Origin: Kiritimatiellia bacterium | GTDB taxonomy: Bacteria; Verrucomicrobiota; Kiritimatiellia; CAIQIC01; Lenti-01 | NCBI GenBank assembly: GCA_017527155.1 | Contig: JAFXQI010000043.1 | Span: forward strand, 1-55,650 | Direction: 5' to 3' | Length of the DNA: 55,650 nt | Part shown: positions 3,167-46,764 of the stretch, in pieces | Layout of the letters: the number at the start of each line of letters is the position of its first letter | How positions within the stretch are numbered: position 1 is the stretch's first letter | Notes under the pieces: generated by a model | Databases searched by the model: none | What the model saw: the letters and a program-made list of their open reading frames with translations, nothing else | What the model was told of the DNA's origin: nothing | Made by a program: the position numbers and the translations under genes

Positions 3167-3173
3167 GCCCGGC

Positions 3174-17324: not shown

Positions 17325-17413
17325 GTCCAAAACCTCGTTCCGCGCCCCTTCCCGGGACGCATCCTCTCCTTTTCCCACATCCGCCCTCCGATTTCACGCT
17401 TTTTCGCACTGGC

Positions 17414-18358
17414 TCAATCGACAAGCAACCGGGCCTTGGCCAGACCGAAGTAGTTCGTCTTCGGGCTGTCCACCACGAAGACACCCCACGTGCGGATGCC
17501 CTGCCGATCCATTTCGCGCCCGCCGGGCGTAATCAACCAGTCGCGGTCGAGAACCAGGACATTCCAACCGTTCGTGACATCGACCTCGGTCTGCCAGCGG
17601 TCGTCGTACGGGGGATTGCCATTCCGGTCGTCAACACGGATGCCCAGGATTCCCGGCCCGCCATTGCGCTTCGGCCAGAAGATTTCGAGTTCCATCCCCC
17701 GGCTTCCCGTCCAATCGTGGCGCAAGGGAAGCCGGAAGATTCCCGGATACGCTCCGGGCTTCTCCGCATCCCGCACGACCCGGAAGAAGCGTTTCCCGCG
17801 CCGCAACCGGACCCCGTTCCGCTCCCAGCGGTAGCGGCTCCAGCGCTGGGAACTGTCGGCCAGCACCGGATGGGCCCGCCATTCCTCGTTCCACCGGAAA
17901 CCGACGAACGCCAGCAACATCGCCGCGACCGCCACGCCCAGCCCCACGCCAGACTTCCTCCATCCGCGCCCGTACAGGAACGCCACCGACGCCCCCAGCG
18001 TGTCCAGCCCCCAGTCCCGCCATTCCGGCATGCGGCCGACCCAGCCCTGCACGATTTCGCTCAATCCACCGGCCAGCACCAGCACTCCGAACAGCATCCA
18101 CTGCCCCTCCCGGCGGCCTTTCGCCAACGGCCAGAGGCTCCACACCAACCCCGCCCACATCCCGGCATGGATGCCGTACGGCAGGATTTCCTTCCAGAGG
18201 GCCGGATCGCCATCGCTCCCGAACGGATAGAACAGCAGGAACAGCACCAGCCCGACATACCCCCACCCCGCCCATCCCACCCGCTGGCGCTGACGCCAAA
18301 ACGCCGCCTCCGCAGGGAGGCGGCGTTCCGGCGGGGAACCTGCCCGGTCAGGGCACAT
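17414..18358 (-). CDS. VanZ-like membrane protein with C-terminal carbohydrate-binding-like domain
   Basis: 314-residue protein. The first half has four or five membrane helices, with the VanZ hallmark FYPFGSDGDPALWKEILPYG and GLSEIVQGWVGRMPEWRDWG-LDTLGA. After a helix at about 143-160 the rest (about 175-314) is an extracytoplasmic domain with a beta-sandwich look (LPLRHDWTGSRGMELEIFWP, WQTEVDVTNGWNVLVLDRD), as in sugar-binding modules. The ATG at 18358 overlaps the end of the giant gene by 11 bp. A GTG at 18280 is an alternative because the giant gene's terminator hairpin lies between them. It ends about 90 bp before the GT117 gene, so the two may share surface glycosylation work. Confidence 0.75.
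   Translation of the reverse strand: MCPDRAGSPPERRLPAEAAFWRQRQRVGWAGWGYVGLVLFLLFYPFGSDGDPALWKEILPYGIHAGMWAGLVWSLWPLAKGRREGQWMLFGVLVLAGGLSEIVQGWVGRMPEWRDWGLDTLGASVAFLYGRGWRKSGVGLGVAVAAMLLAFVGFRWNEEWRAHPVLADSSQRWSRYRWERNGVRLRRGKRFFRVVRDAEKPGAYPGIFRLPLRHDWTGSRGMELEIFWPKRNGGPGILGIRVDDRNGNPPYDDRWQTEVDVTNGWNVLVLDRDWLITPGGREMDRQGIRTWGVFVVDSPKTNYFGLAKARLLVD
18298..18327 (-). terminator. Intrinsic terminator of the giant gene
   Basis: A perfect 12-bp stem (arms 18300-18311 and 18316-18327, AACGCCGCCTCC type) with a 4-nt loop, followed on the minus strand by two more Ts. It begins about 20 bp after the giant gene's stop. The U-tract is short, so termination may be partial and allow read-through to the VanZ gene. 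Confidence 0.6.
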
Positions 18359-21300
18359 ACACCCCGTTCGTCATCATCGACGTCGGGTCGTTGGTCGTGA
18401 TGGTGTACCAGCGCGTCCGGTGCTCGTAGGACGTGCGGTCCTCGAACGTGGAGGTCGCTTCGCCTTCGGAGAGCGTGAAGTTGCTCCGGTGGATCTTAGC
18501 CGGGCCGTTGTAGCGGGCGGGCCACATGCACCAGCTCTTCCCGAAGTCGTCGGAATAGAGGATCCAGTAGTGCTGGCCGCCGAGGCCGCCCTTCCACTCG
18601 AAGCGCATCAGGCCGTTCGCGTCGTAGGGCGCCCGGGAGATGCCCAGCGGGTCGCGCGTGATCGTCAGGTTCGCGCTGCTGATGGCCAGGATGTTGCTCG
18701 CCGTGTCCGTGATCAGCCACTGGCCGGACCCCGTCAGGAACTTCTCGTCCGCGATGTTCCAGAGGAAGTGCTCGCTGAAGGCGTCGCAGCGGGTGAGCTC
18801 GATCCAGCCCTTCGGATCTTCGCCCGTGCTCGTGAACCACACGATGACGTTCTCGTTCTTGTTGGTGCCGAGCAGTTCCGCCGACCACACCAGCGGCCAG
18901 TCGGGGTCCGTGCTCCGCAACGTCTGGGCCGCGCCGTCCAGCGTCCGCAGGTCGTAGCGGTCCCACATGTTCGTCGCGCTCTTGCTCGCCTGGACCGTCC
19001 CGCCGTAGGCGCCGATGTTCCGGCGACCGCCGTTCACCTTGGGTTCGGCCCCAAGGCTCTCGAACGGATTGCCGTGGTCCACCGCCCAGGAGGTCACGGA
19101 GTCCTTCTTCCAAGAGCCGCCCACTGCCGTGGCGAGGAACCGGCCTACCGTGGACTTCGGATGCGCGTCGAACCTCGCCGCGGAGAGCTGGAAGAGGTCG
19201 GCGTTGGTGATGGCGCTGCGCCAGTCGTTCCGCATCTCCAGATGCCAGTGGCGCATGTCCGCGGGAGCGCCGGCGAAGAACCAGCCGTGTACGTCCCCGG
19301 AGGAGGTCTCCGCGCCGAAGTCGTACAGATTGTAGTCCATCGACGCGTTCTGGAGGATCGAAGTCTCCGACCCGATTGCATACACCGCCGCCCCATTGGT
19401 CGGCACGTAGATGTTGTTCTGGATGAGGTTGGCCCCTTCGAGGTTCGACAGCTTCAGCGCCGCGCGGGTCGGCAGCGCGAAAGTCAGGTTCTCCAGCGAC
19501 GTGTCCCTCGCCCAGGCAATGTCCGCGCCCACCTGCGTGTTCCAGAACGCGGAATTGCGGATGGCCAGGTTGGTGGTTGCCAGCGCAACCACGCCGTTCG
19601 TGCTCTTCTGGAACAGCATCCCCGACAGGGTCACGTTCACGTTCGTCTCCAGCATCACCCCGTTCGCCGCGTCCGTCAGGCCCAGGTGGCTGAGTTCGAA
19701 GTCGGACGCCTTGACGTCGAACACGTAGTTCGTCCTGCCGGAGCCGCTGAACATCGTCTTGCCCAGAAGGTTGGTGTTGCCGACAATCCGGACGGGCACG
19801 CCCTCCTCGCCGCTGCGGGACCAGATGACCCGGACGGATTCGGGATAGGCCCCGGAATCCACGTAAACGGTGTCGCCGCCCTCGAGGTCGTACTCGTCGA
19901 GGATGGCCTGCAGCGTCGCCTTCGGCGTGGCCGCCGTCAGCCCGTTGTTCGTCACGGACCCCGCGGCCGTGCAGTAGATGTCGTCGGCGTCAAGGGCGTC
20001 GTTCACGTAGAACGCCTGCACCTTGTTGCGCAACGAGAACGGCTTGTCGCACACGTCGTACTCGCCGCTGCCGTCCACCGTGATACGCCACAGGGCATTG
20101 AAGCTGTTCGGCAGCGCCGCGGAGTTCCACGTCCACTCCCCTCCGCTGGGCGTGGTGGAGAGCGAGACGCCGATGGCGATGTTCGACCAGGTCGTTCCGC
20201 CGTCCGCCGAATAGGCGATGGTCGCGGTCTCGGTACCGGTGATGCCGCCCGCCGCCCAGCGCAACACGACATTGCTGCCTTTGAGCACGCCGCCGTCGTT
20301 CGCCGTCAGCGCCGTCACCCACCGGTTCGTCAAGCTCTTCGAGGCCTGCGGCGTGCCGCCGTAGGCACCGAGGTTGCGGCGGTAGCCGTTCGGCATCAGC
20401 TCGTTGCCGCTGCCCAGCGAAGGATTGCCCAGGTCGATGACCGGCGAATGCTCTCCGTCGGTCTTCCAGTCGCCGTCTTTGTAGCGGCCGACCTTGGAAT
20501 TGAGGTGGAAGTCGCCCGCCTGTTCGTTCTGGAATCCCGGCTCGAAACTCACGCTGTGCGCATCCTGCCCGGACGCCGTCTGCCAGTACGCCAGACGTTC
20601 CCACTTGCCGTGCCGGCTTCCGATCCACGCATCCGGCCCGGCCACGAGGTCGTTCCAGTCGGAGACCAGACCGCCGTCCTTCCAGTCGATGGCGCTGCCG
20701 TTCCCGGACGTTGTACCGGCCACCAGGATGTTGTGCCCCAGCCACAGCGCCCCGGAGAGCTCCTTGGCCACCGCCGTGCCGCGCGTGGCCACAACCGTGC
20801 TGTTGGACACGGCCGCGCCTACCGCCCGCACCGCAATGCCCGTCGCAGACGCATTCGTCACGTACACCAGCGAGTTCACCAGCGCCACGTTCGTCCCCGT
20901 CAGGGTCACGGTGCCCCAGCGTGTTTCAAGTCCCTCCACGCGGTTGCCGCTCCCCGCGACCGTCGCCGATCCGCGCCAGACGTCCGCCCCGCTGAAGAGC
21001 GAATTCTCGCTCTGGATGGCCAGCGTCCCGTTGCTCACCGCGAGATTCGACACCACGAGGCTGGAACCGTTGAACACCACCGGACCTCCCAGAAGGGCAA
21101 TGTCCCGGATGTCCAGCCAGCTCGCCTCGGACGTGAAGATGTGTCCCGCTGCGAAGAGGTTCGACGCCACGAACACGGACCCGTTCGTGCTGCCGGCCAG
21201 CACCACGGGCTTGCCCTGCGCCCCGGAATCCGCCGCTTCCCACGAAATCGGCCGGTTCGTGTCGCCTAGATAATACGTGCCCGTGTCCACCAGAATCTGG

Positions 21301-24300
21301 TCCGTCGGCTCGAAATCCTCGTTCTCGAGGAGCGCCTGCAGGGTGAGCAGCGGGGCCGCCGGATAGCACCCGAGGTTCGCGTCGTTGCCGACGGCCGTCG
21401 TGTAGATGTCGCCGTCCTGCGACAGGTCGTTCAGGTAGAAGGTGAACGGGCTGTTGTGCAGGCCGAACCGCACGTCCGTCATGTCCCAGACGTTCGTGTT
21501 GTCCGTCAGGTGGATCTTCCAGCGCGCTGCCGGGCTCGTCGGCCAGCGGAACGTTCCCGCCTGGGTCTTTGCGCTTTCCCAGTAGTACTGCCCGGCCCCG
21601 GCCTTGGCCGTGCCGATGTACACCCAGTTGTTCTGCCCGTCGTCGTACGAATACCACAGCATCGCGTCCGCGTTCGGGTCCATCGCCCCGCCCCAGCCCC
21701 AGACCAGGTAGAACGTCCCCTCCGCCAAACCGCCGGCCATCGCCGTCACGGCCTGGAACCAGGCGTTCGTGTTGCTCTTGCTCGCCTGCCACGTCCCGCC
21801 GTAGAGGCCGATGTTCCTCCGCCCGCCGTTCGGCGCGGGTTCGTCCGCCCAAGGCGCGTTGGTCGATCCCATGTCGATCAGCGGCGAATAGTCCGGCATC
21901 CCGGCCACGGCCGTGTCCTTCACCCACCTGCCTGTCTTCGGGTCGTACCGCCCCGCCCGGCTCCGTGGATGGAAATCCCCGTTCGCCGGATCGGCGAACA
22001 GCGGATCCGCGCTCAGCGAGTGGATGTCCTGCCTGGACGCCGCCACCCACTGCGGAGTCCTCGGATACTGCATCCCGTTCACCGACGCCACCTCCGCGCC
22101 CCCCGCCACGTACAGGTCGTTGTAGTCCGCCTGCAACGAGATGTTCGTCGGCGACTCGATGCAATAGTTCCCGACCCCGAACGCCGACAGGACCGAGTTG
22201 GTGATCCCGAGTTGCGCCCCTTGCCCGAATATCAGCGCGGAGGCCGCGTTCGACCACACCACGCATCCGTCCATCGTGGTGTACGTGGATTGGCTGATGC
22301 CGATGCCGTTCGTCATCCCGTTCCTGACCAGCACACGCTGCAGGTCGATGTAGCGCGATTGAGAAATCGTGATGCCTTCGCCCGACGACTCCGTCACGTC
22401 GAGGTTGGAGAGGACACAATAGGAAGCGTTCTGGTCGAAAGCCACGCCGTTGGTGAAGCCGCCGATGTGCAAATCGGAAAGGTCGATGTAGGACACCCCG
22501 TACAGGTCAAACGCCGGACGGTCCATCCCCTCCGCCGCCACGATCCAGCTTCCGCCGGCGGCCTCGTTCGTGCTGCCCGCGATGCCGACGTGCGCGGCTG
22601 CCCTACCGCTGTGCACCGATGTCAGGGTCAAGGGTTCATCCGCCTCATACGTGCCCGTGTCGATCAGCACCCGGTCGCCACCAGCCAGCGTGTAGCGCGC
22701 AAACACCGACTGCACGGAATCCAGCGGGCTCTCCGGACGATACCCCCGGTTCGTCGAACTCCCCACCGCCGTCGTGTACACGTCTCCCGTCCGGCTACTA
22801 TCGTTGACATAGTAGATCAACGGCTTCGGCCGGAAGATGAATGTCGTGTCCGTCGCCCCGACCACGTTGGTGTTGCCGACCAGCACCACCCGCCAGAGGG
22901 CCTCGGGAGACGGATCATCCGTGCTCAGCCACTCGTAGGGACTCTGGTTGATCCGCACGGTGTCCACCGTCTGCCACGTCACGCCGTCCGGGGCGTATTG
23001 GACGTCCACGCGGTTGCTTGTCGCCAGCCCCCGGTACAGCCACGCCAGCAACTGCCCGTACGACGCGACACCGCCATCCCGGAAGGTCAACGGATACACC
23101 CCCGGCACGCTCGAATCCGTCTTCGAAGCCATCTCCGTCCCGCCATAGCGGCCCAAGTTGATCCGCCCGCCGTTGGGCGCGGGTTCATGCCCAACCATTG
23201 CGGCCGGATCGCCCGCATCGATGGCCCACGACGTGTCCGCGTCCACCACCCACGTTCCAGCATGCCAGCGCCCGGCGCGGCTTTGCAGATGGAAATCGCC
23301 GTTCTCCGCGTCGGCGAACAGCGGATCGCCCACCCAACTGTGCACGTTGTTGTTGGCATCCATCCACTGCGAAAGGTTCCAGTAGGCCGCCTTCAGATAC
23401 GAATTCGTTGCCACCAGCCCGCCTTCCGGCACTTGGTAGAGATTGTAGTCTCCTTGGATGTTCGCGTTCCCGTTGATGAAGCACAAGGCCATCTTGTTCG
23501 TCTGAACCAGGATGCTGTTGCGGATGTCCAATGTCCCCAGTGTGTTCCGCACCGCCCCGCGGCCGTTCCCCCAGAACGTCGCATTGCGGACCGTGTTGCT
23601 CCCCTTCTGGCCTTCGGAAGCGTAGCCGAAAGAGCCATTCCGGTACAGCAGGCTGTTCGCAATGTCCACAGCACCGCAAGACACTGCCGAAATCCCGTTC
23701 GTCCGGTTCCCGAACGACTCGATTCCGCTCAGCCTGATTCCGTCCGCATATTGCATCGCCAACCCGTTGCGCATCTCCGTGAACCGCAGGTTCGACAACT
23801 CCACGTACCGGATGTTCACCAGCTGGAGTCCGTCATGCCGTCCTTCAAATCCTGTGAACAGCGTCCCCCCCGCAACCCAGTTCGCACTCCCGATGATTTC
23901 CAGCGGCATCCCCTGCGCTCCCATCTGCTGGTCCGTGAAACGGATGGCGTCCATCAGCTCGTACGTGCCCGTGTCGATGAATATCCGGTCGCCCGCCCCC
24001 ACCGGATACAGCGCCAGCAGGTCGTTCAGGCTGTCCAGCGGCGATGCCGCGTTCGTCCCCGTCGCCCCGTCGTACCACGACATGCCCGCCGCCTTGCAGT
24101 ACACGTCGCCGTCCCTGGAGGCATCATTGATGTAGTAGTCGTACGTGTGCGTCTTCACCATCGCAAAGTTGTCCGTCGCGTCCTGGACCTCGAGTTCGTC
24201 CTGGACCTGGATGCGCCACTTCAGCGCCAGGCACAACGGCAACTGCGACACGTCCCACTCGTACTCCCGCTGCCCCACCTCCAAATCCGTCACGATCGGT

Positions 24301-27300
24301 TGCCAAGTCTCCTCGTAGTCGATCGAGTAGTCCAACCGCACCTTCGTCCCCGGTCCCATCCCTCCATAGTTCCAGTACAGCAACACGTCGGAACTCATCG
24401 TCCCTCCCTCGTTGTAGGAGACCGCGCGGACCCACTTGCCCGTCTCCGACAGCGACGCTTGCGCCGTGTTCCCGAACGCCCCGATGTTCACGATGCCGCC
24501 ATTCGGTTCCGGCTCGTTCTCCCACCCGCTCGCCGGGCATCCCGCGTCGATCAGCACCGAATTCGTCAAGTCCGCGTCCGCCTGCCAGTCGGGATAAGAC
24601 CCCATCCGGCTCACCAGATGGAAATTGCCCCTGTTCGCGTTGACGAATCCCGGATCCGCGTCGACCAGCATGCTGTGCCGGTCCCCGCCCGTCGCACCGC
24701 GCCACGCGGGCAAGTTGTTGTAATAGTCGGAGCCGCCTGTCATCAGTCGGTTTTCCGCAATCAAGGCGCTGTCTGCCGCGTAATAGCAATTGTAATCACC
24801 GGAAAACGATTCAGGAGAGGAGGACACACCAAACAGACACATGCGTCCCGAACTTCCGCTCGCATACGCCACGCTGTTGGTCATGCACACGCTGCCTTGG
24901 TCGATTTGGATGGAAATCGGGCTGCCCCACAGCACACAATTCTCCAGTTGCACGTCGGCTTGCCCCACCGCCACCGCCACGCCTCCCGTCCGGCTGAGGT
25001 TGTTCCACAGGATGGTGTTCTGCAGGACATTGCTTGCACAGTAGACCCCAAGATTCACGCCACTGTTATTATTTTCCCGCGCGACCATATTCTCCAGCCG
25101 GCAACCGACCGCATGGTCGAAATCGACACCCGTTACGGCGTTCCGCACCGTCAAGTCCTTCAATTTCACATATTCCGCGTAGGAAAATTTGACTACGCAG
25201 TCGTACGACCGCGACGGGGTCATCAGCACGGTCGGAGCCGCGGGATTTGTGCTGCCCTGGATGGTCACGTAGCAGGGATTCCCTTTTTCGTCCAACCACC
25301 CCGAATCGGTCTGGTCGATCACCAGCGGGCTTGTCAGCGAATAGGTCCCCGCATCCACCAACACCACGTCCTCCGGCGCCAGTTCGTAGGCATCCAGAAT
25401 GGCCTGTACGCTCGCTTTCGGCGTCCCGGTCGTCAGACCGTCGTTTCCGTCATCCCCCGCCGCCGTGCAGTACACGTCGTTTGTCTCCAGCGCATTGTTT
25501 ACGTAGTAGTAGATCGATCCGCCGTTGCGCAATACGAACGTGGACAGGCTCGCCGCCTCGATGGACGTGTTTTCCACGCAGTACGCCCGCCAGCGGCCCA
25601 GCGCAGAGCGGCCGTAGTCCGTGCTGTCCCACAGATACCGCCCTTCCGTCGCCGGAATTCCGCACACGATGTTCGTCCACGAGTTTCCGTTGTCCGGCGA
25701 GTAGTCCAGGCACACCGAGTAGTTGGTCGCCGCCCCGCCCACCGTCCACAGCAATTCCGTCTCCCCGCTCGCCGTGCCGCCGTCGTTCAGCGAGAGCAGC
25801 GTCAGAGTGCCCGCCGCCACCGAACGGCTGGCCTCCGCCGTGCCCCCGTACAGGCCGATGTTCAGCCGCCTCCCGTTCGGGTCCGGCTCCGCCGTCCAGC
25901 TGGCGTCCGCCGGATTGCCCGCGTCCAGCAACGTCGACGAGACCGGATCGAAAACCCATGCCGCAGTCCCGTCCTCGTTCCAGTGCAACCTCCCGCCTTG
26001 GCTCTTGAGATGGAAATCGCCCGCCGCCGCGTCCGCCACCCGCGGATCGTTCGGCAACGAATGAGTGTCGTTTCCGCTGAAGTTCCCCCAGGCCGACACC
26101 GTTGCGTACACCGACGTTCGCGCCGATGCATCATTCCCCGTCTGATACCCCGCCACCTGCCCGCGATCCGCCACGTGCAGTCCGTTGTAGTCACCGCGGA
26201 GGGAGAACGGCGGTCGGTCGGCCCGCACATAGTAGGCAAAGCTCCCGTTTCCCTCGGCATGGACAATCGAGTTGCTCATCGCCACTTTGGCTTGGTTCAC
26301 GTGGATTCCGTACCGGTTCCCCCACAGTACGCTGTGGTTCACCAGCACGTCGCCGGTTCGTAGACCGCTCACCGACACCCCTATACCGTTGTTTCTCAAA
26401 ACCACATGGTCCAAGACCACGTTCGAGGACTGGTTGACGACCACGGCGTTCGAGGCATCCTGCAATCGCAGCCAGCGCCCCTCGATGTTGTAACTTTCCG
26501 ACAGCCCGATTGAACTTGCACCGCCCACCACCGTGAGGCTGTCCAATTCCACTCCGTACGCTCCGTCGAAGACGATGCCATTCTGTTCTTCCGATGCCAG
26601 AATGAACCGGCTTCCGCCCTCCGATTCGTTCGTACTCCCCTGCAACAACACCCGTTCCCCGCTCCCGCCGCCAATCGCACCGGAATCCAAATCGCCCCAA
26701 ACGGTTTCGGAGTCCACCAGATAATCGCCCGTATCCACGTAAACGACATCCCCCGGCTCGAGATTGTAGGCCTCGATGATCTCAGACATCCACCGCTTCG
26801 GGGAATCCGGCGTCAGGCCCGTGTTCGAGGAGGCGCCCGGCGCCGTGCAGTACACGTCCCCGTCCACGAAGGAATCGTTCACGTAGTACGCGATGCCACC
26901 GTTGTGCAACACGAAGGCTGCCTCGCTCGTCGCCCACACCTTCCCGCTTCCGGCATCCGTCAAACGCCACCGCCCTATCGGCGTCGACGCCACGGCCGAA
27001 CTGTTCCACCTCAATCCGCCCAACGCCGCCGACAGCCCCCCCGCGATCCTCTGCCAGCTCGCCCCGTCGTCGGGGGAGAACTCCACGTCGAACACCGCCC
27101 CCGTCGCCGCCCCGGTCACCAGCCAGTTCAGCGACACCAGCCCCGACGCCACCCCCCCCCGATTGAGCGTCAGCAACCGCACCAGCGAGTTCGTCGGCGT
27201 CTTCGACGCGAATTCCGTCCCTCCGTACAGGCCGATGTTCGCCCGCCCCCCGTTCGGGGCCAGCTCGGAGGCGAACTCCGTTTCGGGCGCCCCCGCATCG

Positions 27301-30300
27301 ATCAGGGGAGAGGTTTCCTTGTCTTTCACCCATTTCTCCGTCACGGCATTCCAGCGGCCCGTCTGGCTGAGCAGGTGGAAGTCATAATTGTTTGTGTCCG
27401 CAATCTTCGGCACCCCGTCGTACGAGTGCAAATCCTGTCCCGACGCCTCTGCCCATGCGCCGAGCGATTCGTAGACGACCGGGACCGGCGCCACCATTTT
27501 GTCCTGCCGCTCCTCGTATACCCGCACCCCGTCGGAAACGGGGACCGCATTGTAGTCTGCCGTCAGTTGCGCACGGCTGTCCAACCCGTAGACATAGTGC
27601 CCCGGCGACACCGACAGGATGCTGTTGCGCACCGTCGCGCGGTGCTCGGCGCCCAGTTTCACCGCATACCCCGACGTCCCCCAGAACACGCAGTTCTCGA
27701 TCAAAGGGAACACGACCACGTTCGTCGTGCGCGTGTCGCGGGACATGACCGACACACCGTTCTGCGCATTCAGCGTCACGCAACGCCGCACTTCCAGCCC
27801 GCTCCCCGCGCCCGTCGACAGGTAGAAGCCCGAATTCGCCTGATTGGCCACCATCCACTCCAGCTTCACAGCATGCGAATTGTTGATGGACACCGCCTGC
27901 CCCGACGTGTTCGACACCGTGATGTTCCGCAACTCCACGCCCGCCGCATAGTCCACCTGGATCCCGATTTCCTGCCCGTTGCGGTTCAGGACGGTCCCGT
28001 TCAACAGCGAGTTCGTCGCCCCTTGGAACACAACGGCCGGTTCTTTCACCTTCCCGTCCTCGTCGATGCCTGCCGAATCCGCCTGGGTGATCCGCCAGGG
28101 ATTCACCCCGGGGTCGTACGTCCCCGTGTCGATGTACACCGTGTCCCCCGCCTCCAGATCGTACTTCTCCAGCAGGCTGTTCAGATTCAGCATCGGCGTC
28201 GCCGGAGACAACCCGTCGTTCGTGTTCCGGCCCACCGCCGTGCAGTACACGTCCCCCGTCCTGCTCCCGTCGTTCACGTAGAACGTGAACGGCGTGTTGC
28301 GCACCGAGAACACGCCATCGGTGATCGCGTTCGTGGTCGCACTCTCCAACTTCAGCTTCGCTTGCACGGACTGTGCACTCGTTTCCGTGTTCCACGTCCA
28401 GCTCCCCAGGCCCGCCGACACGCCCGTCGCCAGCACGGTCCACGTCGCCCCGCCGTCTGCCGAGTACGAAATCTTCAGCTTGTCCGAGTCCTTTCCCGTG
28501 TAGTTCCAGGCGACCACGGCGTTCGTTCCGCTCGCTCGCCCACCATCGTGGAACGACACCAGCGTCAGCATCGCATTCGTCGGCGTCTTCGCCGCAAGCG
28601 GGGTATTGCCGTGGCGCCCGATGTTGATTCTCCCACCGTTCGGGTCCGGCTCCGCCGTGCACGCAGACAATGGATTCCCCGCGTCCACCAACGACGATGT
28701 CGTGGCATCGCCGTTCCCTTGGCTCTTCAGGCGGAAGTCGCCCGCCGCCGCGTCCGCGAACTGCGGGTCGTGCGACAGGCTGTGCCTGTCCATCCCGCTC
28801 TCCGCGCTCCAATCCCCGACCGAATTGTATTCCTTCAGGAAGGAGCCCAGGTACGACACCGCCACCAACCCGCCGTTCTTCACGTCGTAGTTGTTGTAGT
28901 CCGCCATCAGCGTCCCGCGCAGCTCGATGGCCGGGACACGGTACCCCGACGCATCCAGCGAACAGTTCGTCATCGTCACGTACGAATTGGTGTACCCGCT
29001 CCCGGTGCCGTTCAACAGCGCCGAACGCACCAGCAGCGAAACCGCGTTCGATGCCAGCACGCCCGATTCCAGATGCAGTCCCTTCACGCCCCCGGCCGCG
29101 ACCCCGTTCGTCCTGGAACCGGAGGCAGAGAAATGCCGCAACGTGATCTCAGCCGAGGACTCCACTTCGAAGCCGTTGCCCTTTGCCCCCCGCACATCCA
29201 CGCCGTCCAGCACCAGGTTTTCGGCATTCTTGACCCCCACCGCCTCGGCCGTCTTCTCCACCCCCCGGAATGCCACGTCGCGGATTTCCACCCCGCGGAC
29301 GTTCCCCAGCCGCAGCCCCGCCCCGGTCCAGACCGTCGGGGCCGCCGCGTTCGTGCTGCCCTGCAACACCGCCGGCGCCGCGGCCGTTCCGCCGTCCGTG
29401 TAATCCCACGCCACGGCCTTTTCGAAGGCATGGCTCCCGGCATCCATGTACACCGTGTCCCCCGGCTCGAGATCGTACCGTTCCAGCACCGCCACCAACG
29501 AGTCCAGCGGACTCCCCGGCACGGTCCCGCTGTTTTCCGGGGCCCCCGCTGCCGTGCAGTACACGTCGCCCGCCGTTTCCCCGTCGTTCACGTAATACGA
29601 CATCGGACCGTTTCTCAGCAGGAAGTCCGCTTCCGACTGGACTGTCCAGCTCGTGTTCGTCATGTTCTGCACCTGCCAGCGCATCGTGGGGCACGATGCC
29701 CGCCCCGACGCATCCCACTGGATTGACCCCGCCGCGGAAGGCACGTTGTTCGACACCGCCGTGAAGCTTTCCCCGCCGTTGGTCGAAACCATGATGCGGA
29801 CGCGCTGCTCCGCCCCTGTCGCCACGCCCTGCGGAATCCAGGAAAGCGTCACTTTGTTCGACACCACCCCGCCGCCGTTGAGTGTCGCGATTACATACGA
29901 CGCCTGGTTCGTCGGCGTCTTGCTCGCCAGCGCGTGGTTCCCCCAGAATCCCATGTCCGCCCGCCCGCCGTTCGGGGCCGGTTCCGCCGCGAACGGATAG
30001 TCAGGATCCGCCGTGTCGACCAACGGCGATGTGACCTCGTCGTTCACCCACTTCTCCTCCGCCGGGGAATACCTCCCGCCCTGGCTCTTGGGGTGCAGGT
30101 CTCCGCCCGCCAGGTCCGCAAAGAGCGGATTGCCCACCAGCGAATGGGCATCGCAGCCGCTCCAAGCCTGCCAAGCCGGCAGGGCCCCGAAACTCGCCTC
30201 GTTCACGCCATAAATCTCGCCCAGGGCCAACCGCCCCAGGCGAGACTCCGCATGCGGCATGCAGTAGAAGTTGTAGTCGCCCGCCACCCCTCCCACCCCC

Positions 30301-33300
30301 GCATCGTACACGTCGAACGTCGGCTGGTTCGCCACGAACACGCTGTTGCTCACGTACAGGCGCCCGGAGGCCACGCTCACCAGCTTGCCCGTCGAGACCG
30401 GCGTCCCGTCTTCCGCCGGGTACGCCGACGAAACCACGCCCCCGATCCACCGGTTGGTGGCGGCGGGGATTGTGGGGACAAGCGGCCTGACCATGTAGAA
30501 TCCGGTCCGGAACGCATTCAGCGCCGCGCACTGCACGAACTCGTTCTGGTCCGATGCTGCGCCCAGCAGGAACGAACTGTACTTCGCCCCCGTCGACACC
30601 ACGTGGTAAAAACGGTTGGAACTCGATTCCGTCAGCGCCAGCCCCGTGTTGCCCCCGGCCAACCGGATGTCCCGCATCTCGATCTGTTGCGAACCCGACA
30701 GCTCGAGCACCGCCGACGCCGCCGAATTCGTGAACAAGCTCCCGCCCGCGGCCTCGTTCGTGCTCCCCTGGATCACCAGGTTGTTCGTCGCCCCCGGCGT
30801 CGATATCGCGATGGTCAGCGTCGAAGTCCTCGGATACGTCCCCGTGTCCACGTACACCGTGTCCCCCGGCTCCACCTTGTACCGCCCCAGCAACGTCTCC
30901 AGCGACAGCATCGGCGTCGCCGGCGACAACCCGTCGTTCGACGTCTTCCCCGCCGCCGTGCAGTACACGTCTCCGTCCGTTGCCGCGTCGTTCACGTAGT
31001 AGTTCGCCGGATCGTTCTTGATGGCGAACAGTGTCTCCGTACGGCCGTAGACGTTCGTGTTGCCAGCCAACTCGATTTTCCACACCCCCATCGACGTGCT
31101 GGGAAAATTCGTCGTGTTCCACGCCTGCCCGTTCTGGTTGATGTAGATGCCGTTCGTAATGGACTGCCACGTCTTGCCCCCGTCGCCCGAGAACTTGATG
31201 TTCACCCGCGTGTTGTCCGCAAACCCGTTGTACGCCCAGTACAGCACTGCCTCGCCCCTCACCGTGCCGCCGTCCGACATCGTCAGCGCCGTCAGCGTCC
31301 CGTTCGTGGGGCTTCGGCTCGCCTGCGCCGTATTCCCGTACAGCCCCACATTGATCCGTCCACCGTTCGGCGCCGTCTCGGCGGCGTATGGGAAGGTCGT
31401 GTTGCCCATGTCGATCAGCTTCGAGGTCGCCTTGTCCTTCACGAACTTCTTCGTCTCCGGATTGTACCGCCCGTACTGGCTCAGCGGATGGAAATCATCC
31501 GCCGCCGCATCCTTGAACTGGGGATCGAACCCGAAGCTGTGCATGTCGTTCGACCCGCCGGACGCCGTCTGCCAGTCGATCAGGAAGCGCGAGGGAGCCC
31601 CGCCCCCGAATCCGTCAGCCACGTACGCCCCGCTGTCCACCACCACGTCGTTGTAGTCCGACGAAAACCGCGACGGCTCGTTTCCGCGGTACACGTGCCG
31701 TCCCTGCCCCGACGCCAGCAGCACGCTGTTCTGCACGTCCACGCTTCCGCCAATCTGGAACACTCCGCCCCCGCGATTGTCCCGCACCACGCTGTTGTAC
31801 ACCCTCACCGTCGCCCCCGTCTTTGCCGCCACTCCGTTGTACAGGCTCTGCTGCACCAGGCACGACCTCAGCGTCACGTCCGCTCCGGCATCCGCGAAGA
31901 ACGCATTCGTCGCCGCATAGCCCAGCTGGCAGTTGAACAGTTCGATGTCCGAGCAGTCAGCGGCGTACCCCCCCGTCCAGGCGTTCGACACGCACAGCCC
32001 TTCCAGCCGGATGCTCTGTGCATCCGACAGCACCAGACCGTATCCCCCCGTTGTCCGGTACTTCTGCTTCAGCACGCTCGCATGCAGCGGATCGTTCGTG
32101 TTTCCCACGACCCGCAGCGGGGCGTTCGTGGTTCCGGAATCCTTGATTCCGAACACCACCGGCGCCTCTTCCTCGTAAGTGCCCGTGTCCACGTACACAG
32201 TGTCCCCGCCCTCCAGGTCGTACAGCTCCAAGGCCCGCCGCAACGAATCCAACGGAGCCGCTTTCGTCGCGGCGACGTTCGTCGGCTTCCCTTGTCCGGT
32301 CACATACACCGTCTCGTTCGTGTCCGCGGTCGCCAGGTAAATCTTTAGCGGGGCTTTTCGGATGGCGAAAAACACCCCGTTGTCCGACTCCACCGAACTG
32401 TCCGCGCGGCTGGTGACCCGCCACATCCCTGCCGGACTGTCCGCGAATTTCGACGCATTCCACGCAAATTCCCCCGCCGACGCCTGGATGCTGTTCGCCA
32501 CGTTCGACCACGTCGTCCCACCGTCCCGCGACACCGCCACCCGCACCGTTCCCGTGATTCCCCCGCCCGCGATCCAGCGCAACGTTGCCGTCTCGCTCCC
32601 CACCGACCCCGCGTCCGCATACGACACAGCCCGCAACCACGGACGGTCCAGCGCTTTGCTCGCCTCCGCCGTTCCACCGTACATCCCGATGTTCACCCGC
32701 CCGCCGTTCGGCGCCGGTTCGTCCCCACAGCCGCTGGCCGGATCGCCCGCATCCAGGAGCGGCGACGATTCCGTGTCCGACGTCCACCCCGCCGCCGTGT
32801 ACCGTCCCAACGTCTGCTCCGTCTTCAGGTGGTAGTCGTACGTATCCAGGTCCGCCAGCAACGGATCGCCCGGGATGCTGTGCATGTCCAACCCTCCAGA
32901 CATCTTCTGCCACGCCGCCAGGTTGTCCGCGTACGCACGCGTCAGCGTATTGTACGCCACCCGGCACCCACCGGCCGCGTCGATCCCGTTGTAGTCCATC
33001 GTCATCCCCTCCAGCGTCGAATACGAAACCAGCACGCCTCCCGCCCTGTCCGAACTCAGCACCGTGTTCCGGATATCCACTTCCGCGCCGGCACCCAGCC
33101 ACACCGCATTGTTCACCCCGTGGAACACGCAATTCTCAACCGCCACCCCGGACGCATTCGCCACCGACAGCCCCCGCCCGCCGCCTTCGAACGCCCCGTG
33201 CCGCACCTTGACCCCTTCCGTGTCGCCATCCACCGCCACACCCGCTTCGCGCACGCCGCGCAACTCCACCCCTTCCAGCGTGATGTTTTCCGCCCCCGAC

Positions 33301-36287
33301 ACCGATACGCCCGTCGTCGTGTTCGTCACAATCACGTTCCGCAACACAATGTTCGACGCCCCCGCCTGGAACTGGAATGCCACCGGCCGCACACTCTCCC
33401 GGTTCCCGAACTGGCTCCCGTTCGCCGCCCGGTTGGTGCTGCCGATGATCTGGACGGCGTTCGTGGCCACGCCGGAACTGTTCGCCGTGAACTCGATTGC
33501 TTTCCGTTCGTCGTAGATTCCCGTATCCACGTACACCCGGTCGCCCTCGCCCAGCGTGTATGCCTCAAGCAATTTGCTCAGCGTCCGCATCGGCATGTCC
33601 CGGCTCAAGCCCGAGTTGGCGTCGTCGCCGGGCGCCGTGCAATACACGTCGCCGTCCGTGCTCTCGTCGTTCAGGTAGAAATGGAACGATCCGTTCTTGT
33701 ACATGAAACTCGACAGGTTCGTGGAGGCAACCCCCGACGCCCCATCCAGCGTGATTTTCCACCGGGCGTAAAGCGCCGAAGGGTCGTTCGTGTCCGTGTT
33801 CCGGTAGAAATGCGTGCCGGACGCCACGTCCACGTTCTCCGCCAGGACCTCCCACGTCTGCCCGTCGTTCCGCGACAGCCAAATCGTCGCCGTCGCCCCC
33901 GACGCATATCCGCCCGCATTCCACTGCAGCGTCTGTCCGGCCTGCGCGTCCAGGGTGCCGCCGTCGTTGAAGGTATACGTCCGCACCCACGCCCCTCCCG
34001 GGCTCTTCGCCGCCTCGCCCGTCCCCCCGTACGCCCCGATGTTCACCCGTTGCCCGTTCGGGGCGGGCTCGTTCGTGTACGCCGTGCTGGCCGGATCGCC
34101 CGCGTCGATCAGCGCCGAACCCGTTCCCTCGTGGAAATCCCCGTTCTCCGCATCGACGAACTGCGGATCCGACGCAAAACTGCGCATCCATCCCGTCCCG
34201 TACCCCTGCAACGCCTGCAGGGTTGTCACCCCGCGGGTGTACTGGGCGTTGCCCCAAAGCACATTGTAGTCCCCCCGCGGGACGACCGCGGTGTTGCCCT
34301 GGTACAGGGCAAAGGCGCTCTCCGACGATCCGGCGACCACGCTGTTCGAAACCACCGTGTTGGTCGTGCACCCCAAGCCGAACCGGTTCCCGTACGCCAC
34401 GCAATGGTCCAGAACTCCATCTGCCCCCCAGAAGCCGTACATCGTGTTCTTCGCGAATACGCTGTGTTCCACCGTCAAATCGCTCGCGAGACCGCTGAGC
34501 CCGGTATAATTCCCCGTCATCGTGCAGCCTTCGACCCGCACATGCGCCGTCCCGTTGGTCAGCAACAACCCGTTCCGTCCTCCCGTCAGCGTCAGATTCT
34601 CCAGTTTGACGTATTCCGCGCGATTCAGAGTCAGGGCACTGAATGTCGTGTTGTCGGGGTCCAGCACCGTCCCGTTCGTGCTCCCCGAAATCGTCACCCA
34701 CGACGCCTCCGTCCCCCGGTGGAGCATCCCCACCACCGGTGTCTCCTCCATGTACGTTCCCGTGTCCACCCAAACCCGGTCACCGGCGCCCAGCGAGTAC
34801 GTGTCCAGCAAATCCGCCAGGCTCGCCTTGGGCGTTGCCGGCGTCACCCCGTCGTTCGACGCCTTCCCCGTCGCCGTGCAGTACACATCCCCGGTGCGGC
34901 TCCCGTCGTTCACGTAAAAGTCGAAGTGGCTCCCCTCCCCCGACCGCACCGAGAAAACCGCTCCGTTCGTCGCGCTCACCGCCGCGCTCTTCGAGCTCGT
35001 CACCTTCCACAGCGCCCGCGGACTCTCCTGGGCCGCCGTGATGGTCCACGTGTAGCGTTCGTCCGCCGCCGCTACCGTCCCCAGCGTCGTCCATTTCGCC
35101 CCCGCGTTCGTGCTGATCTGCACCTTGACGGTCTCTCCCTCCCCGAAATTCGCCGCAGCCCACTCCAGCACCGCGCTCCCCGTCGCCCGCCCCCCATGGG
35201 CGAACGTCAGCGCCCGCAGGGCGGCTCCCGTCGCGCTCTTGCTCGCCTCCCCCGTCCCCGCGTAACGCCCGATGTTCCCCCGCCCACCGTTCGGCGTCGG
35301 CTCGTTCGAATAGTCCGAGTCCGCCAATCCCGTGTCGATTCCAGGGCTGTACGCCACCGAAGTGTCCGTCACCCAGTTCCTCCCCGTCACCACCCCCTCG
35401 GCGTTCGTCGTGCATTTCATGTAGCCGTACGGCGAAAGCAGGTGGTAATCTCCTCCAGCCGCATCCGCGAAACAGGGATTTCCCATCTGGTTTCCGCTCC
35501 ATCCAGGAAGATTCGCGGCCACCTCTTCGACGTTCGCGTAATTCGGCCCGTACTGATTGGCGGCGTGGATGTTCTCGACGTCGAAAAGGCAGTGCTGCAC
35601 CTTCTCGGGAATGCCCGTGAAAAAAGCGCTCCCTGCAGCACTGACGATGCACTCCTGCAGACTCCAGCCGTCGGCATTCGCGATGTCAACGGGGGCGAGC
35701 AGCACGCTCCGGACAATGCAATGGTTCGTCACGCGCCCGTAGTCGACAATGGCCCGCCCCCCCCCGACACTGCAGTTTTCGATTTGCAGATTCTTGCCGG
35801 CCAGGGACCAAATGCCTATGCCACCTCCACTGCTACCCCGGATGTCACAATGCTTCAGTTGCCAATGATTCCCTTGGAACCGGAACCCCATTGACCCCCG
35901 GATTGAAAAGTTTTCCATCCGATAATGGTTTGCCGATCCTTGTACGAAAAAGGCCGTCCCGGATGCCGTCACGAACGTCCCGTTCGTGCTGCCCAACAGC
36001 GAAATGGGCTCGTTTTCGGCGCCGGAAACGCTGGGCAGGACCGACTCGTTGTACGTCCCCGTGTCCACGTACACCGTGTCCCCCGCCGACAGCTTCGGCA
36101 ACGCCGCCCCGATGGTCAAAAACGGCGTCGCCGGCGTCTGCCCGTCGTTCGCGTCGTTCCCCGTCGCCGTGCAGTACGTGTCGCCGGTGCGGCTCCCGTC
36201 GTTGACATACCAATCCTTCGCCGCCGCCGCCGTGGCCGCCAGGGCCAGCACAACCGCCGCAATTCCGGAATAGAAGCTGTTTTTCAT
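18348..36287 (-). CDS. Giant 13-module secreted beta-helix surface protein
   Basis: 5,979-residue exported protein. A signal peptide (MKNSFYSGIAAVVLALAATA, cleavage near AAA-KDW) is followed by 13 modules of about 415-480 residues. Each module has: a header with (Y/F)YVND-x-GDVYCTA-x-G, ND-G-P-TP and GD-VYVDTGTY; a parallel beta-helix region in the style of pectate-lyase/DUF1565 proteins; a D-HS-DP-FAD-GDFH block ending PNGGR-NIG-YGGT-ASK; and an Ig/BNR-like strand set (DGG-TW-I). A short unique end finishes MTNGVYVP, with no LPXTG, PEP-CTERM or autotransporter barrel visible. I infer an adhesin or polysaccharide-contacting role. The ATG at 36287 has GAGGTG 7 nt upstream. No internal stop or frameshift was seen. 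Confidence 0.93.
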   Translation of the reverse strand: MKNSFYSGIAAVVLALAATAAAAKDWYVNDGSRTGDTYCTATGNDANDGQTPATPFLTIGAALPKLSAGDTVYVDTGTYNESVLPSVSGAENEPISLLGSTNGTFVTASGTAFFVQGSANHYRMENFSIRGSMGFRFQGNHWQLKHCDIRGSSGGGIGIWSLAGKNLQIENCSVGGGRAIVDYGRVTNHCIVRSVLLAPVDIANADGWSLQECIVSAAGSAFFTGIPEKVQHCLFDVENIHAANQYGPNYANVEEVAANLPGWSGNQMGNPCFADAAGGDYHLLSPYGYMKCTTNAEGVVTGRNWVTDTSVAYSPGIDTGLADSDYSNEPTPNGGRGNIGRYAGTGEASKSATGAALRALTFAHGGRATGSAVLEWAAANFGEGETVKVQISTNAGAKWTTLGTVAAADERYTWTITAAQESPRALWKVTSSKSAAVSATNGAVFSVRSGEGSHFDFYVNDGSRTGDVYCTATGKASNDGVTPATPKASLADLLDTYSLGAGDRVWVDTGTYMEETPVVGMLHRGTEASWVTISGSTNGTVLDPDNTTFSALTLNRAEYVKLENLTLTGGRNGLLLTNGTAHVRVEGCTMTGNYTGLSGLASDLTVEHSVFAKNTMYGFWGADGVLDHCVAYGNRFGLGCTTNTVVSNSVVAGSSESAFALYQGNTAVVPRGDYNVLWGNAQYTRGVTTLQALQGYGTGWMRSFASDPQFVDAENGDFHEGTGSALIDAGDPASTAYTNEPAPNGQRVNIGAYGGTGEAAKSPGGAWVRTYTFNDGGTLDAQAGQTLQWNAGGYASGATATIWLSRNDGQTWEVLAENVDVASGTHFYRNTDTNDPSALYARWKITLDGASGVASTNLSSFMYKNGSFHFYLNDESTDGDVYCTAPGDDANSGLSRDMPMRTLSKLLEAYTLGEGDRVYVDTGIYDERKAIEFTANSSGVATNAVQIIGSTNRAANGSQFGNRESVRPVAFQFQAGASNIVLRNVIVTNTTTGVSVSGAENITLEGVELRGVREAGVAVDGDTEGVKVRHGAFEGGGRGLSVANASGVAVENCVFHGVNNAVWLGAGAEVDIRNTVLSSDRAGGVLVSYSTLEGMTMDYNGIDAAGGCRVAYNTLTRAYADNLAAWQKMSGGLDMHSIPGDPLLADLDTYDYHLKTEQTLGRYTAAGWTSDTESSPLLDAGDPASGCGDEPAPNGGRVNIGMYGGTAEASKALDRPWLRAVSYADAGSVGSETATLRWIAGGGITGTVRVAVSRDGGTTWSNVANSIQASAGEFAWNASKFADSPAGMWRVTSRADSSVESDNGVFFAIRKAPLKIYLATADTNETVYVTGQGKPTNVAATKAAPLDSLRRALELYDLEGGDTVYVDTGTYEEEAPVVFGIKDSGTTNAPLRVVGNTNDPLHASVLKQKYRTTGGYGLVLSDAQSIRLEGLCVSNAWTGGYAADCSDIELFNCQLGYAATNAFFADAGADVTLRSCLVQQSLYNGVAAKTGATVRVYNSVVRDNRGGGVFQIGGSVDVQNSVLLASGQGRHVYRGNEPSRFSSDYNDVVVDSGAYVADGFGGGAPSRFLIDWQTASGGSNDMHSFGFDPQFKDAAADDFHPLSQYGRYNPETKKFVKDKATSKLIDMGNTTFPYAAETAPNGGRINVGLYGNTAQASRSPTNGTLTALTMSDGGTVRGEAVLYWAYNGFADNTRVNIKFSGDGGKTWQSITNGIYINQNGQAWNTTNFPSTSMGVWKIELAGNTNVYGRTETLFAIKNDPANYYVNDAATDGDVYCTAAGKTSNDGLSPATPMLSLETLLGRYKVEPGDTVYVDTGTYPRTSTLTIAISTPGATNNLVIQGSTNEAAGGSLFTNSAASAVLELSGSQQIEMRDIRLAGGNTGLALTESSSNRFYHVVSTGAKYSSFLLGAASDQNEFVQCAALNAFRTGFYMVRPLVPTIPAATNRWIGGVVSSAYPAEDGTPVSTGKLVSVASGRLYVSNSVFVANQPTFDVYDAGVGGVAGDYNFYCMPHAESRLGRLALGEIYGVNEASFGALPAWQAWSGCDAHSLVGNPLFADLAGGDLHPKSQGGRYSPAEEKWVNDEVTSPLVDTADPDYPFAAEPAPNGGRADMGFWGNHALASKTPTNQASYVIATLNGGGVVSNKVTLSWIPQGVATGAEQRVRIMVSTNGGESFTAVSNNVPSAAGSIQWDASGRASCPTMRWQVQNMTNTSWTVQSEADFLLRNGPMSYYVNDGETAGDVYCTAAGAPENSGTVPGSPLDSLVAVLERYDLEPGDTVYMDAGSHAFEKAVAWDYTDGGTAAAPAVLQGSTNAAAPTVWTGAGLRLGNVRGVEIRDVAFRGVEKTAEAVGVKNAENLVLDGVDVRGAKGNGFEVESSAEITLRHFSASGSRTNGVAAGGVKGLHLESGVLASNAVSLLVRSALLNGTGSGYTNSYVTMTNCSLDASGYRVPAIELRGTLMADYNNYDVKNGGLVAVSYLGSFLKEYNSVGDWSAESGMDRHSLSHDPQFADAAAGDFRLKSQGNGDATTSSLVDAGNPLSACTAEPDPNGGRINIGRHGNTPLAAKTPTNAMLTLVSFHDGGRASGTNAVVAWNYTGKDSDKLKISYSADGGATWTVLATGVSAGLGSWTWNTETSAQSVQAKLKLESATTNAITDGVFSVRNTPFTFYVNDGSRTGDVYCTAVGRNTNDGLSPATPMLNLNSLLEKYDLEAGDTVYIDTGTYDPGVNPWRITQADSAGIDEDGKVKEPAVVFQGATNSLLNGTVLNRNGQEIGIQVDYAAGVELRNITVSNTSGQAVSINNSHAVKLEWMVANQANSGFYLSTGAGSGLEVRRCVTLNAQNGVSVMSRDTRTTNVVVFPLIENCVFWGTSGYAVKLGAEHRATVRNSILSVSPGHYVYGLDSRAQLTADYNAVPVSDGVRVYEERQDKMVAPVPVVYESLGAWAEASGQDLHSYDGVPKIADTNNYDFHLLSQTGRWNAVTEKWVKDKETSPLIDAGAPETEFASELAPNGGRANIGLYGGTEFASKTPTNSLVRLLTLNRGGVASGLVSLNWLVTGAATGAVFDVEFSPDDGASWQRIAGGLSAALGGLRWNSSAVASTPIGRWRLTDAGSGKVWATSEAAFVLHNGGIAYYVNDSFVDGDVYCTAPGASSNTGLTPDSPKRWMSEIIEAYNLEPGDVVYVDTGDYLVDSETVWGDLDSGAIGGGSGERVLLQGSTNESEGGSRFILASEEQNGIVFDGAYGVELDSLTVVGGASSIGLSESYNIEGRWLRLQDASNAVVVNQSSNVVLDHVVLRNNGIGVSVSGLRTGDVLVNHSVLWGNRYGIHVNQAKVAMSNSIVHAEGNGSFAYYVRADRPPFSLRGDYNGLHVADRGQVAGYQTGNDASARTSVYATVSAWGNFSGNDTHSLPNDPRVADAAAGDFHLKSQGGRLHWNEDGTAAWVFDPVSSTLLDAGNPADASWTAEPDPNGRRLNIGLYGGTAEASRSVAAGTLTLLSLNDGGTASGETELLWTVGGAATNYSVCLDYSPDNGNSWTNIVCGIPATEGRYLWDSTDYGRSALGRWRAYCVENTSIEAASLSTFVLRNGGSIYYYVNNALETNDVYCTAAGDDGNDGLTTGTPKASVQAILDAYELAPEDVVLVDAGTYSLTSPLVIDQTDSGWLDEKGNPCYVTIQGSTNPAAPTVLMTPSRSYDCVVKFSYAEYVKLKDLTVRNAVTGVDFDHAVGCRLENMVARENNNSGVNLGVYCASNVLQNTILWNNLSRTGGVAVAVGQADVQLENCVLWGSPISIQIDQGSVCMTNSVAYASGSSGRMCLFGVSSSPESFSGDYNCYYAADSALIAENRLMTGGSDYYNNLPAWRGATGGDRHSMLVDADPGFVNANRGNFHLVSRMGSYPDWQADADLTNSVLIDAGCPASGWENEPEPNGGIVNIGAFGNTAQASLSETGKWVRAVSYNEGGTMSSDVLLYWNYGGMGPGTKVRLDYSIDYEETWQPIVTDLEVGQREYEWDVSQLPLCLALKWRIQVQDELEVQDATDNFAMVKTHTYDYYINDASRDGDVYCKAAGMSWYDGATGTNAASPLDSLNDLLALYPVGAGDRIFIDTGTYELMDAIRFTDQQMGAQGMPLEIIGSANWVAGGTLFTGFEGRHDGLQLVNIRYVELSNLRFTEMRNGLAMQYADGIRLSGIESFGNRTNGISAVSCGAVDIANSLLYRNGSFGYASEGQKGSNTVRNATFWGNGRGAVRNTLGTLDIRNSILVQTNKMALCFINGNANIQGDYNLYQVPEGGLVATNSYLKAAYWNLSQWMDANNNVHSWVGDPLFADAENGDFHLQSRAGRWHAGTWVVDADTSWAIDAGDPAAMVGHEPAPNGGRINLGRYGGTEMASKTDSSVPGVYPLTFRDGGVASYGQLLAWLYRGLATSNRVDVQYAPDGVTWQTVDTVRINQSPYEWLSTDDPSPEALWRVVLVGNTNVVGATDTTFIFRPKPLIYYVNDSSRTGDVYTTAVGSSTNRGYRPESPLDSVQSVFARYTLAGGDRVLIDTGTYEADEPLTLTSVHSGRAAAHVGIAGSTNEAAGGSWIVAAEGMDRPAFDLYGVSYIDLSDLHIGGFTNGVAFDQNASYCVLSNLDVTESSGEGITISQSRYIDLQRVLVRNGMTNGIGISQSTYTTMDGCVVWSNAASALIFGQGAQLGITNSVLSAFGVGNYCIESPTNISLQADYNDLYVAGGAEVASVNGMQYPRTPQWVAASRQDIHSLSADPLFADPANGDFHPRSRAGRYDPKTGRWVKDTAVAGMPDYSPLIDMGSTNAPWADEPAPNGGRRNIGLYGGTWQASKSNTNAWFQAVTAMAGGLAEGTFYLVWGWGGAMDPNADAMLWYSYDDGQNNWVYIGTAKAGAGQYYWESAKTQAGTFRWPTSPAARWKIHLTDNTNVWDMTDVRFGLHNSPFTFYLNDLSQDGDIYTTAVGNDANLGCYPAAPLLTLQALLENEDFEPTDQILVDTGTYYLGDTNRPISWEAADSGAQGKPVVLAGSTNGSVFVASNLFAAGHIFTSEASWLDIRDIALLGGPVVFNGSSLVVSNLAVSNGTLAIQSENSLFSGADVWRGSATVAGSGNRVEGLETRWGTVTLTGTNVALVNSLVYVTNASATGIAVRAVGAAVSNSTVVATRGTAVAKELSGALWLGHNILVAGTTSGNGSAIDWKDGGLVSDWNDLVAGPDAWIGSRHGKWERLAYWQTASGQDAHSVSFEPGFQNEQAGDFHLNSKVGRYKDGDWKTDGEHSPVIDLGNPSLGSGNELMPNGYRRNLGAYGGTPQASKSLTNRWVTALTANDGGVLKGSNVVLRWAAGGITGTETATIAYSADGGTTWSNIAIGVSLSTTPSGGEWTWNSAALPNSFNALWRITVDGSGEYDVCDKPFSLRNKVQAFYVNDALDADDIYCTAAGSVTNNGLTAATPKATLQAILDEYDLEGGDTVYVDSGAYPESVRVIWSRSGEEGVPVRIVGNTNLLGKTMFSGSGRTNYVFDVKASDFELSHLGLTDAANGVMLETNVNVTLSGMLFQKSTNGVVALATTNLAIRNSAFWNTQVGADIAWARDTSLENLTFALPTRAALKLSNLEGANLIQNNIYVPTNGAAVYAIGSETSILQNASMDYNLYDFGAETSSGDVHGWFFAGAPADMRHWHLEMRNDWRSAITNADLFQLSAARFDAHPKSTVGRFLATAVGGSWKKDSVTSWAVDHGNPFESLGAEPKVNGGRRNIGAYGGTVQASKSATNMWDRYDLRTLDGAAQTLRSTDPDWPLVWSAELLGTNKNENVIVWFTSTGEDPKGWIELTRCDAFSEHFLWNIADEKFLTGSGQWLITDTASNILAISSANLTITRDPLGISRAPYDANGLMRFEWKGGLGGQHYWILYSDDFGKSWCMWPARYNGPAKIHRSNFTLSEGEATSTFEDRTSYEHRTRWYTITTNDPTSMMTNGVYVP
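18351..36215 (-). repeat. 13 tandem coding modules inside the giant gene
   Basis: Module headers (the YVND motif) lie near 36206, 34911, 33672, 32338, 30994, 29590, 28275, 26882, 25500, 24130, 22808, 21434 and 20005, a step of 1.24-1.43 kb. Module 4 is the most diverged: its header reads YLATADTNETVYVTG and lacks the usual VND and the Cys. Protein similarity between modules is clear while the DNA has diverged, so the expansion is old and not an assembly artefact. Confidence 0.85.
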
Positions 36288-36335
36288 TCTGCACCTCGTC
36301 TGTACATGCACCAAGACTCTATGCATGGGATTTGT

Positions 36336-44010: not shown

Positions 44011-44157
44011 CCAAACCGTCCTGATGCTGAACGAATGCAAATGAATGGAATACCGACAACCGGGGATTCGCCTCGGCCGAAACGGGCCGAGGGTCACAGC
44101 CTTGGAGGAAAAGACGCTCTTGCGCCGCCTCACCGGCCATCGGCTTCAGGCACGCAC

Positions 44158-46734: not shown

Positions 46735-46764
46735 GAGTTCGCAATGCAATCTGGTATCCCCGTT

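Follow-up and report, generated by a model that had tools for sequence, protein, structure and literature searches.

A giant secreted protein of 13 beta-helix modules in Kiritimatiellae, possibly a fixed-length envelope rod with a VanZ-like membrane partner

The window, by which is meant the whole stretch of DNA analysed, is an entire 55,650-base contig from a 3.23-Mb draft genome, and contains the gene for a giant secreted protein made up of 13 beta-helix modules. As far as can be judged from sequence comparison, this protein is an ancient single-copy ortholog in Kiritimatiellae, a little-known bacterial class. The reading favoured here, to which a probability of roughly 0.45 is attached, is that it constitutes a secreted rod of the envelope, fixed in length and accompanied by a dedicated membrane partner concerned with lipid-linked sugar. 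Since most copies keep 13 ordered modules and are associated with a dedicated membrane partner, a structural rod is probable, as opposed to a fast-changing adhesin. Descriptions of giant genes in PVC bacteria usually present them as strain-specific or patchy in distribution; one that can be traced through several families, with one-to-one orthology of its modules, provides a rare and testable case for asking whether selection acts on the length of a surface rod.

The reading frame and its modules

The giant gene is a single open frame on the minus strand (window 18348-36326), encoding 5,992 aa from the first ATG, with a second methionine at 36287 (MKNSFYSG...) that gives a protein of 5,979 aa. 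The initial annotation had described a frame of nearly 18 kb and 5,979 residues, which is confirmed, with 36287 being the position of the second methionine and the strand corrected to minus; the plus strand over the locus is interrupted by stops. The signal peptide that had been proposed is also plausible, a probable Sec signal peptide being discernible by eye from the MKNSF start. A very long and repetitive frame in a draft genome might be suspected of being an assembly artefact or a pseudogene. That reading is already refuted, as the frame is free of internal stops, frames of equal length occur in many independent assemblies (5,713-6,054 aa in relatives, near the length of the window protein), and the same 13 modules are present in independently assembled genomes. 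Moreover, the longest internal DNA repeats are short and diverged (165 nt at no more than 79% identity, 86 nt at no more than 85%), hence it is unlikely that the assembler has merged or multiplied copies. A search of Rfam gave no match.

A module HMM identified exactly 13 full-length modules in the protein, of 413-476 aa, and motif counts returned 13 headers, 13 GD-x-VYVDTGTY strands and 13 PNGGR-x-NIG blocks. Identity among the modules is about 31%, and E-values between different modules of the same genome reach 4e-69, which excludes chance likeness; no paralogs of the modules were found elsewhere in the window's genome. The features of the giant gene are given below, modules 1-9 being delimited by motif scan and module HMM (module 5 by cross-module search also), modules 10 and 11 by module HMM and AlphaFold2 (AF2), module 12 by module HMM and tree, and module 13 by module HMM.

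18348..36287, minus: giant secreted protein, 5,979 aa (5,992 aa from the ATG at 36326), 13 beta-helix modules
36219..36287, minus: probable Sec signal peptide MKNSFYSGIAAVVLALAATAAAA, judged by eye
34920..36212, minus: module 1
33681..34919, minus: module 2
32343..33680, minus: module 3
31002..32342, minus: module 4, degenerate header IYLATADTNETVYVTG, without Cys
29598..31001, minus: module 5
28284..29597, minus: module 6
26889..28283, minus: module 7
25509..26888, minus: module 8
24138..25508, minus: module 9
22815..24137, minus: module 10, in the AF2 model
21441..22814, minus: module 11, in the AF2 model, header without Cys
20013..21440, minus: module 12, most conserved position, header without Cys
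18651..20012, minus: module 13
18351..18650, minus: C-terminal domain of about 100 aa, ending FEDRTSY..RWY, conserved across families and specific to the giant
34831-34916 and 36124-36209, also 28195-28280 and 30913-30998: similar header DNA segments

The 13 diverged beta-helix modules of the initial annotation are therefore borne out by the HMM, the motif counts and the structural model considered below, while several of its finer details required revision. The header cysteine, regarded as fixed in every module, is present in 10 of 13 modules here (absent from 4, 11 and 12) and in 100 of 182 modules across 14 genomes, falling to 1/14 at module 12 and 2/14 at module 11. The HS-DP-FAD-GDFH block stands in its strict pattern in 10 modules, with only degenerate forms, visible by alignment, in modules 1, 5 and 13. 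The header and PNGGR segments, put forward as separate sub-domains, correspond to caps and a connector of known beta-helix families; header, beta-helix, HS/DP block, PNGGR block and Ig-like part form one continuous module. Over a length of 86 nt, the header DNA of modules 1, 2, 5 and 7 shows 80-85% identity, much more than the module average, and it is possible from these sequences that local gene conversion has occurred.

AlphaFold2 modelling of modules 10-11 with a 60-row alignment gave a confident prediction (pLDDT 94.6, pTM 0.86) in which each module is a right-handed beta-helix with an Ig-like sandwich. The predicted order is N-cap/header, right-handed beta-helix, connecting block carrying the HS-DP-GDFH and PNGGR motifs, Ig-like sandwich and next header. 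The repeating beta-helix expected from the initial annotation is thus reproduced in the model, and the confidently predicted junction between the two modules fits a stiff rod; together with the HMM, the model supports the earlier idea of a long beta-helix fibre in the form of a secreted rod of 13 modules. Both profile matches and the modelled beta-solenoid place the modules among the right-handed parallel beta-helix families. Indeed, Pfam Beta_helix (PF13229) scored 152.7 and 89.3 bits against a cut-off of 25.9, and NosD (PF05048), Disaggr_assoc (PF08480) and DUF5123 (PF17161) exceeded their cut-offs also. The module is built from these four families, although none of the models describes a fixed 13-fold array with an Ig-like domain in every unit.

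Kiritimatiellae are known for polysaccharide use, and the giant could be an extracellular polysaccharide-degrading enzyme whose modules are tandem lyase-like catalytic domains, in line with what has been proposed for the ~6,000-aa CASH protein of Ca. Menyafoubacter (PMC12057145). The Beta_helix and Disaggr_assoc matches, and the profile and fold matches to alginate lyase, PL6, rhamnogalacturonan lyase and mannuronan epimerase, would be consistent with this. However, the fold likeness is weak and generic: Foldseek against the PDB returned pectate-lyase-like enzymes and phage tailspikes with TM-scores to target of no more than 0.49, and a viral fold library yielded only generic beta-helix tailspikes and similar. 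Furthermore, the invariant columns of the beta-helices (13-14 genomes per position) are mostly Gly, Asn, Ser and Thr with a few aromatics, conserved sites of a structural kind, and no invariant acid/base cluster of catalytic type was present at any of the 13 positions among 13-14 orthologs. Conserved catalytic residues of the PL6/AlgE kind are accordingly not evident, as judged by the invariant columns of each module position. These data favour a structural role over conserved lyase chemistry, and the enzymatic reading, for which no module position offers a conserved site, is considered unlikely. Glycan binding by the variable faces of the beta-helices is possible and compatible with the same columns.

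The role in adhesion or glycan contact suggested by the initial annotation is hypothetical and somewhat weakened. The giant would in this case be a fibrillar adhesin, a long stalk holding out a binding site towards polysaccharide, a host or neighbouring cells. The protein is giant, secreted, elongated and repetitive, beta-helix folds often bind glycans, its profile relatives include polysaccharide-active proteins, and surface-polysaccharide genes are situated nearby in the window. Against this, no adhesive or anchor domain was recognised in the giant by Pfam or NCBIfam models of described domains, no variable tip is evident, conservation centres on structural Gly and Asn residues, and the module number is locked in most families, unlike that of Periscope-type stalks (PMC8201768). 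A fibrillar adhesin is therefore doubtful.

Module register across Kiritimatiellae

Thirteen complete genes, from six GTDB families (f1, f3, f4, f13, f15 and f18), carry all 13 modules in register, while a fourteenth genome (G008) has lost most of module 1, of which a stub remains. When the modules of genome G000 were compared with those of nine other genomes, the best match was to the module at the same position in 100 of 117 cases, against 9 expected by chance, and module length by position was correlated between families at 0.75 (maximum of the shuffled null, 0.14). In the module tree 8 of the 13 positions were monophyletic and the others mostly recovered; the non-monophyletic positions may be due to the local gene conversion at headers mentioned above. 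Orthologous modules have diverged to approximately 35-50% identity. The number is not absolute, with an array of about 9 modules in G055 (f20), one of at least 14 in G206 (f10), which ends at the contig end, and the module-1 deletion in G008.

Within a class sample of 224 genomes, each at least 85% complete, strong orthologs of module 12 (E<1e-110) were found in 21, with related arrays in three further genomes of f20. In the phylum-wide sample outside the class no genome passed E<1e-110 for module 12, the best match being 1.6e-55, and contigs matching the giant are mainly from Kiritimatiellae, Verrucomicrobia and Lentisphaerae MAGs. G001, a 96%-complete genome of the same genus and the closest relative sequenced, is without both the giant and the VanZ-like gene described below, which indicates that loss happens and that the rod is dispensable. 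The concatenated tree groups sequences mainly by family, with f3 placed beside f13 and f18 and apart from f4 of its own order, such that some horizontal transfer, or deep noise, is possible. On one 1.4-Mb contig (G072:C1, L078) the ortholog is broken into several frames, through either decay or long-read frameshifts.

A tentative but credible alternative, which falls short of even odds, is that copy number is conserved passively, because the modules have diverged beyond the point at which they could recombine, and that the protein serves a loose matrix function with no requirement for length. Module identity of ~31% and DNA repeats that are short and at most 85% identical favour this, as does the tie between repeat-number change and high repeat identity in other proteins (PMC8201768), and forms with 9 and at least 14 modules exist. 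Nevertheless, a module could be lost in frame without identical repeats recombining, and still the number 13 has persisted in six families, even as orthologous modules diverged to ~35-50% identity. A stronger form of the rod reading, in which length and order of the 13-unit rod are selected, the rod sets an envelope dimension as a molecular ruler, and it is fixed via a lipid-linked glycan joined by the lipocone protein, is speculative and improbable. If true, the dimension set might be the height of a surface layer or the span between layers, and the lipocone joining would be a new way for giant surface proteins to be anchored.

The VanZ-like partner and retention at the cell

Three neighbouring genes were considered as partners of the giant.

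17414..18358, minus: VanZ-like (lipocone) membrane protein with C-terminal beta-rich domain, class-wide partner
13452..17378, minus: fusion of a TMEM260-like O-mannosyltransferase with C-terminal TPRs, 1,308 aa, next gene downstream
40931..42346, minus: polytopic membrane protein, possibly of GT-C type (by eye)

The VanZ-like gene is directly downstream of the giant and overlaps its stop codon. Its family retains the H, ExxQ, GR and D motif residues (H64, E101 and Q104 invariant, D115 at least 90%), the marks of VanZ/lipocone proteins being ExxQ in H3, Asp in H4 and a four-helix membrane core; the beta-rich character of the C-terminal domain was judged from sequence. Pfam VanZ matches 11 of 17 family members, the window protein scoring below the cut-off, and a PDB search with the family found nothing. 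The VanZ-like profile was detected in 25 of the 224 class genomes, 21 of which have the giant and four of which (G073, G204, G205 and G208) do not; three genomes have the giant with no detected partner (G069, G051 and G201) and 196 have neither. The Fisher p-value for co-occurrence, 1e-22, treats genomes as independent and is uncorrected for phylogeny, and the association partly reflects shared ancestry. It amounts to more than linkage, since the two genes lie on separate contigs in several families (e.g. G036, G038, G041 and G043).

A GT2 gene adjoins the VanZ-like gene in most lineages, and its product, the best solved relative of which is dolichol-phosphate-mannose synthase, resembles a polyprenyl-phosphate-sugar synthase. 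The VanZ-GT2 pair is kept together where the giant is located elsewhere (G043, G055 and G026), and in the window's genome a GT2 ortholog (74%) is present at another locus. Directly before the unlinked VanZ-like gene of G038:C8 (L090) is a protein that resembles, by eye, an apolipoprotein N-acyltransferase (2685-4292).

The remaining candidates were set aside. The TMEM260-like O-mannosyltransferase was attractive but is beside no ortholog, and the 40931-42346 membrane protein is present in only 5 of 56 relatives, all of them giant-positive, and is retained as a lesser candidate; in two other families a homologue of it immediately precedes the giant. In the window the gene immediately upstream of the giant is an oppositely oriented, transposase-like ORF with weak rve/IS481 matches (36492-37886, plus), and it may have come between the giant and a partner that ancestrally lay upstream. 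Further along is a surface-polysaccharide cluster (44035-54380) of acyltransferase, glycosyltransferase, Wzt-like and Wzm-like ABC exporter and MATE genes, among which Fic and pseudopilin-like genes are scattered; G013 likewise has Wzt/Wzm homologues upstream of the giant.

As the initial annotation had noted, no anchor or sorting motif is visible at the C-terminus of the giant, PEP-CTERM, LPXTG and T9SS motifs having been considered. The C-terminal domain ends in a strand of the form [FY]xD..S....R-x-Y-R across families (RWYTI in the window protein), and a search of six genomes revealed no convincing paralogs, other matches being at E>=4e-4 only. A generic sorting tag is therefore rejected in favour of a dedicated terminal domain. 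AF2 modelling of module 13 with the C-terminus from 9 sequences gave a poor model (pLDDT 57). The domain could feasibly form the contact to the VanZ-like protein, which may be involved in retention of the giant at the cell.

According to the fixed-length rod reading, the giant would be exported across the outer membrane as a single-copy, rigid rod of the Kiritimatiellae cell envelope, usually of fixed length, built by stacking 13 beta-helix plus Ig-like units in series, with the C-terminal domain as a cap. A rough estimate from the module count would put its length at 60-120 nm. Its function, as a spacer, fibre or element of a surface-layer lattice, would rest on set length and module order, length then being a selected property, and not on catalysis or copy-number variation. 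The VanZ/lipocone protein in the inner membrane, with its beta-rich domain probably facing the periplasm, would handle a glycan linked to a lipid carrier that decorates or attaches the rod, the sugar being supplied by the putative polyprenyl-phosphate-sugar synthase whose gene adjoins that of the VanZ-like protein in most lineages. This partner offers a handle on how Gram-negative cells retain giant proteins that have no known sorting signals, and on the role of those VanZ/lipocone proteins that possess extracytoplasmic domains.

Comparison with known systems

A high propensity for huge proteins has been reported for the PVC phyla, including Lentisphaerae (PMC11573180). The nearest published object to the giant, by description, is the ~6,000-aa CASH beta-helix protein of the Ca. 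Menyafoubacter / PUNC01 clade (Auribacterota), which has been read as catabolic or predatory (PMC12057145). The two are alike in size, Sec signal, lack of a TM helix and tandem beta-helix domains, and the CASH protein has a disaggregatase region, Disaggr_assoc being matched by the giant also. However, the CASH protein, compared here by description only, belongs to another phylum and is reported to have PL6, RHS-, MSCRAMM- and TSP3-like parts, none of which was found in the giant, whose 13 modules are uniform and keep a fixed register. Giant1-5 of Apilactobacillus kunkeei (PMC12863079), of 3,000-8,000 aa, are similarly extracellular and elongated with beta-solenoid parts. These Gram-positive proteins have one N-terminal beta-solenoid on alpha-helical/beta-sheet arrays and an SH3b-like C-terminus, in contrast to the 13 beta-helices and different C-terminal domain of the Kiritimatiellae protein. 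Finally, Periscope proteins (SasG, Rib and Sgo_0707) share with the giant an arrangement of tandem folded domains as a rod at the surface, but their repeats are nearly identical and, in connection with that identity, change in number even between similar strains (PMC8201768), whereas those of the giant are ~31% identical and locked across six families, with 13 in most families.
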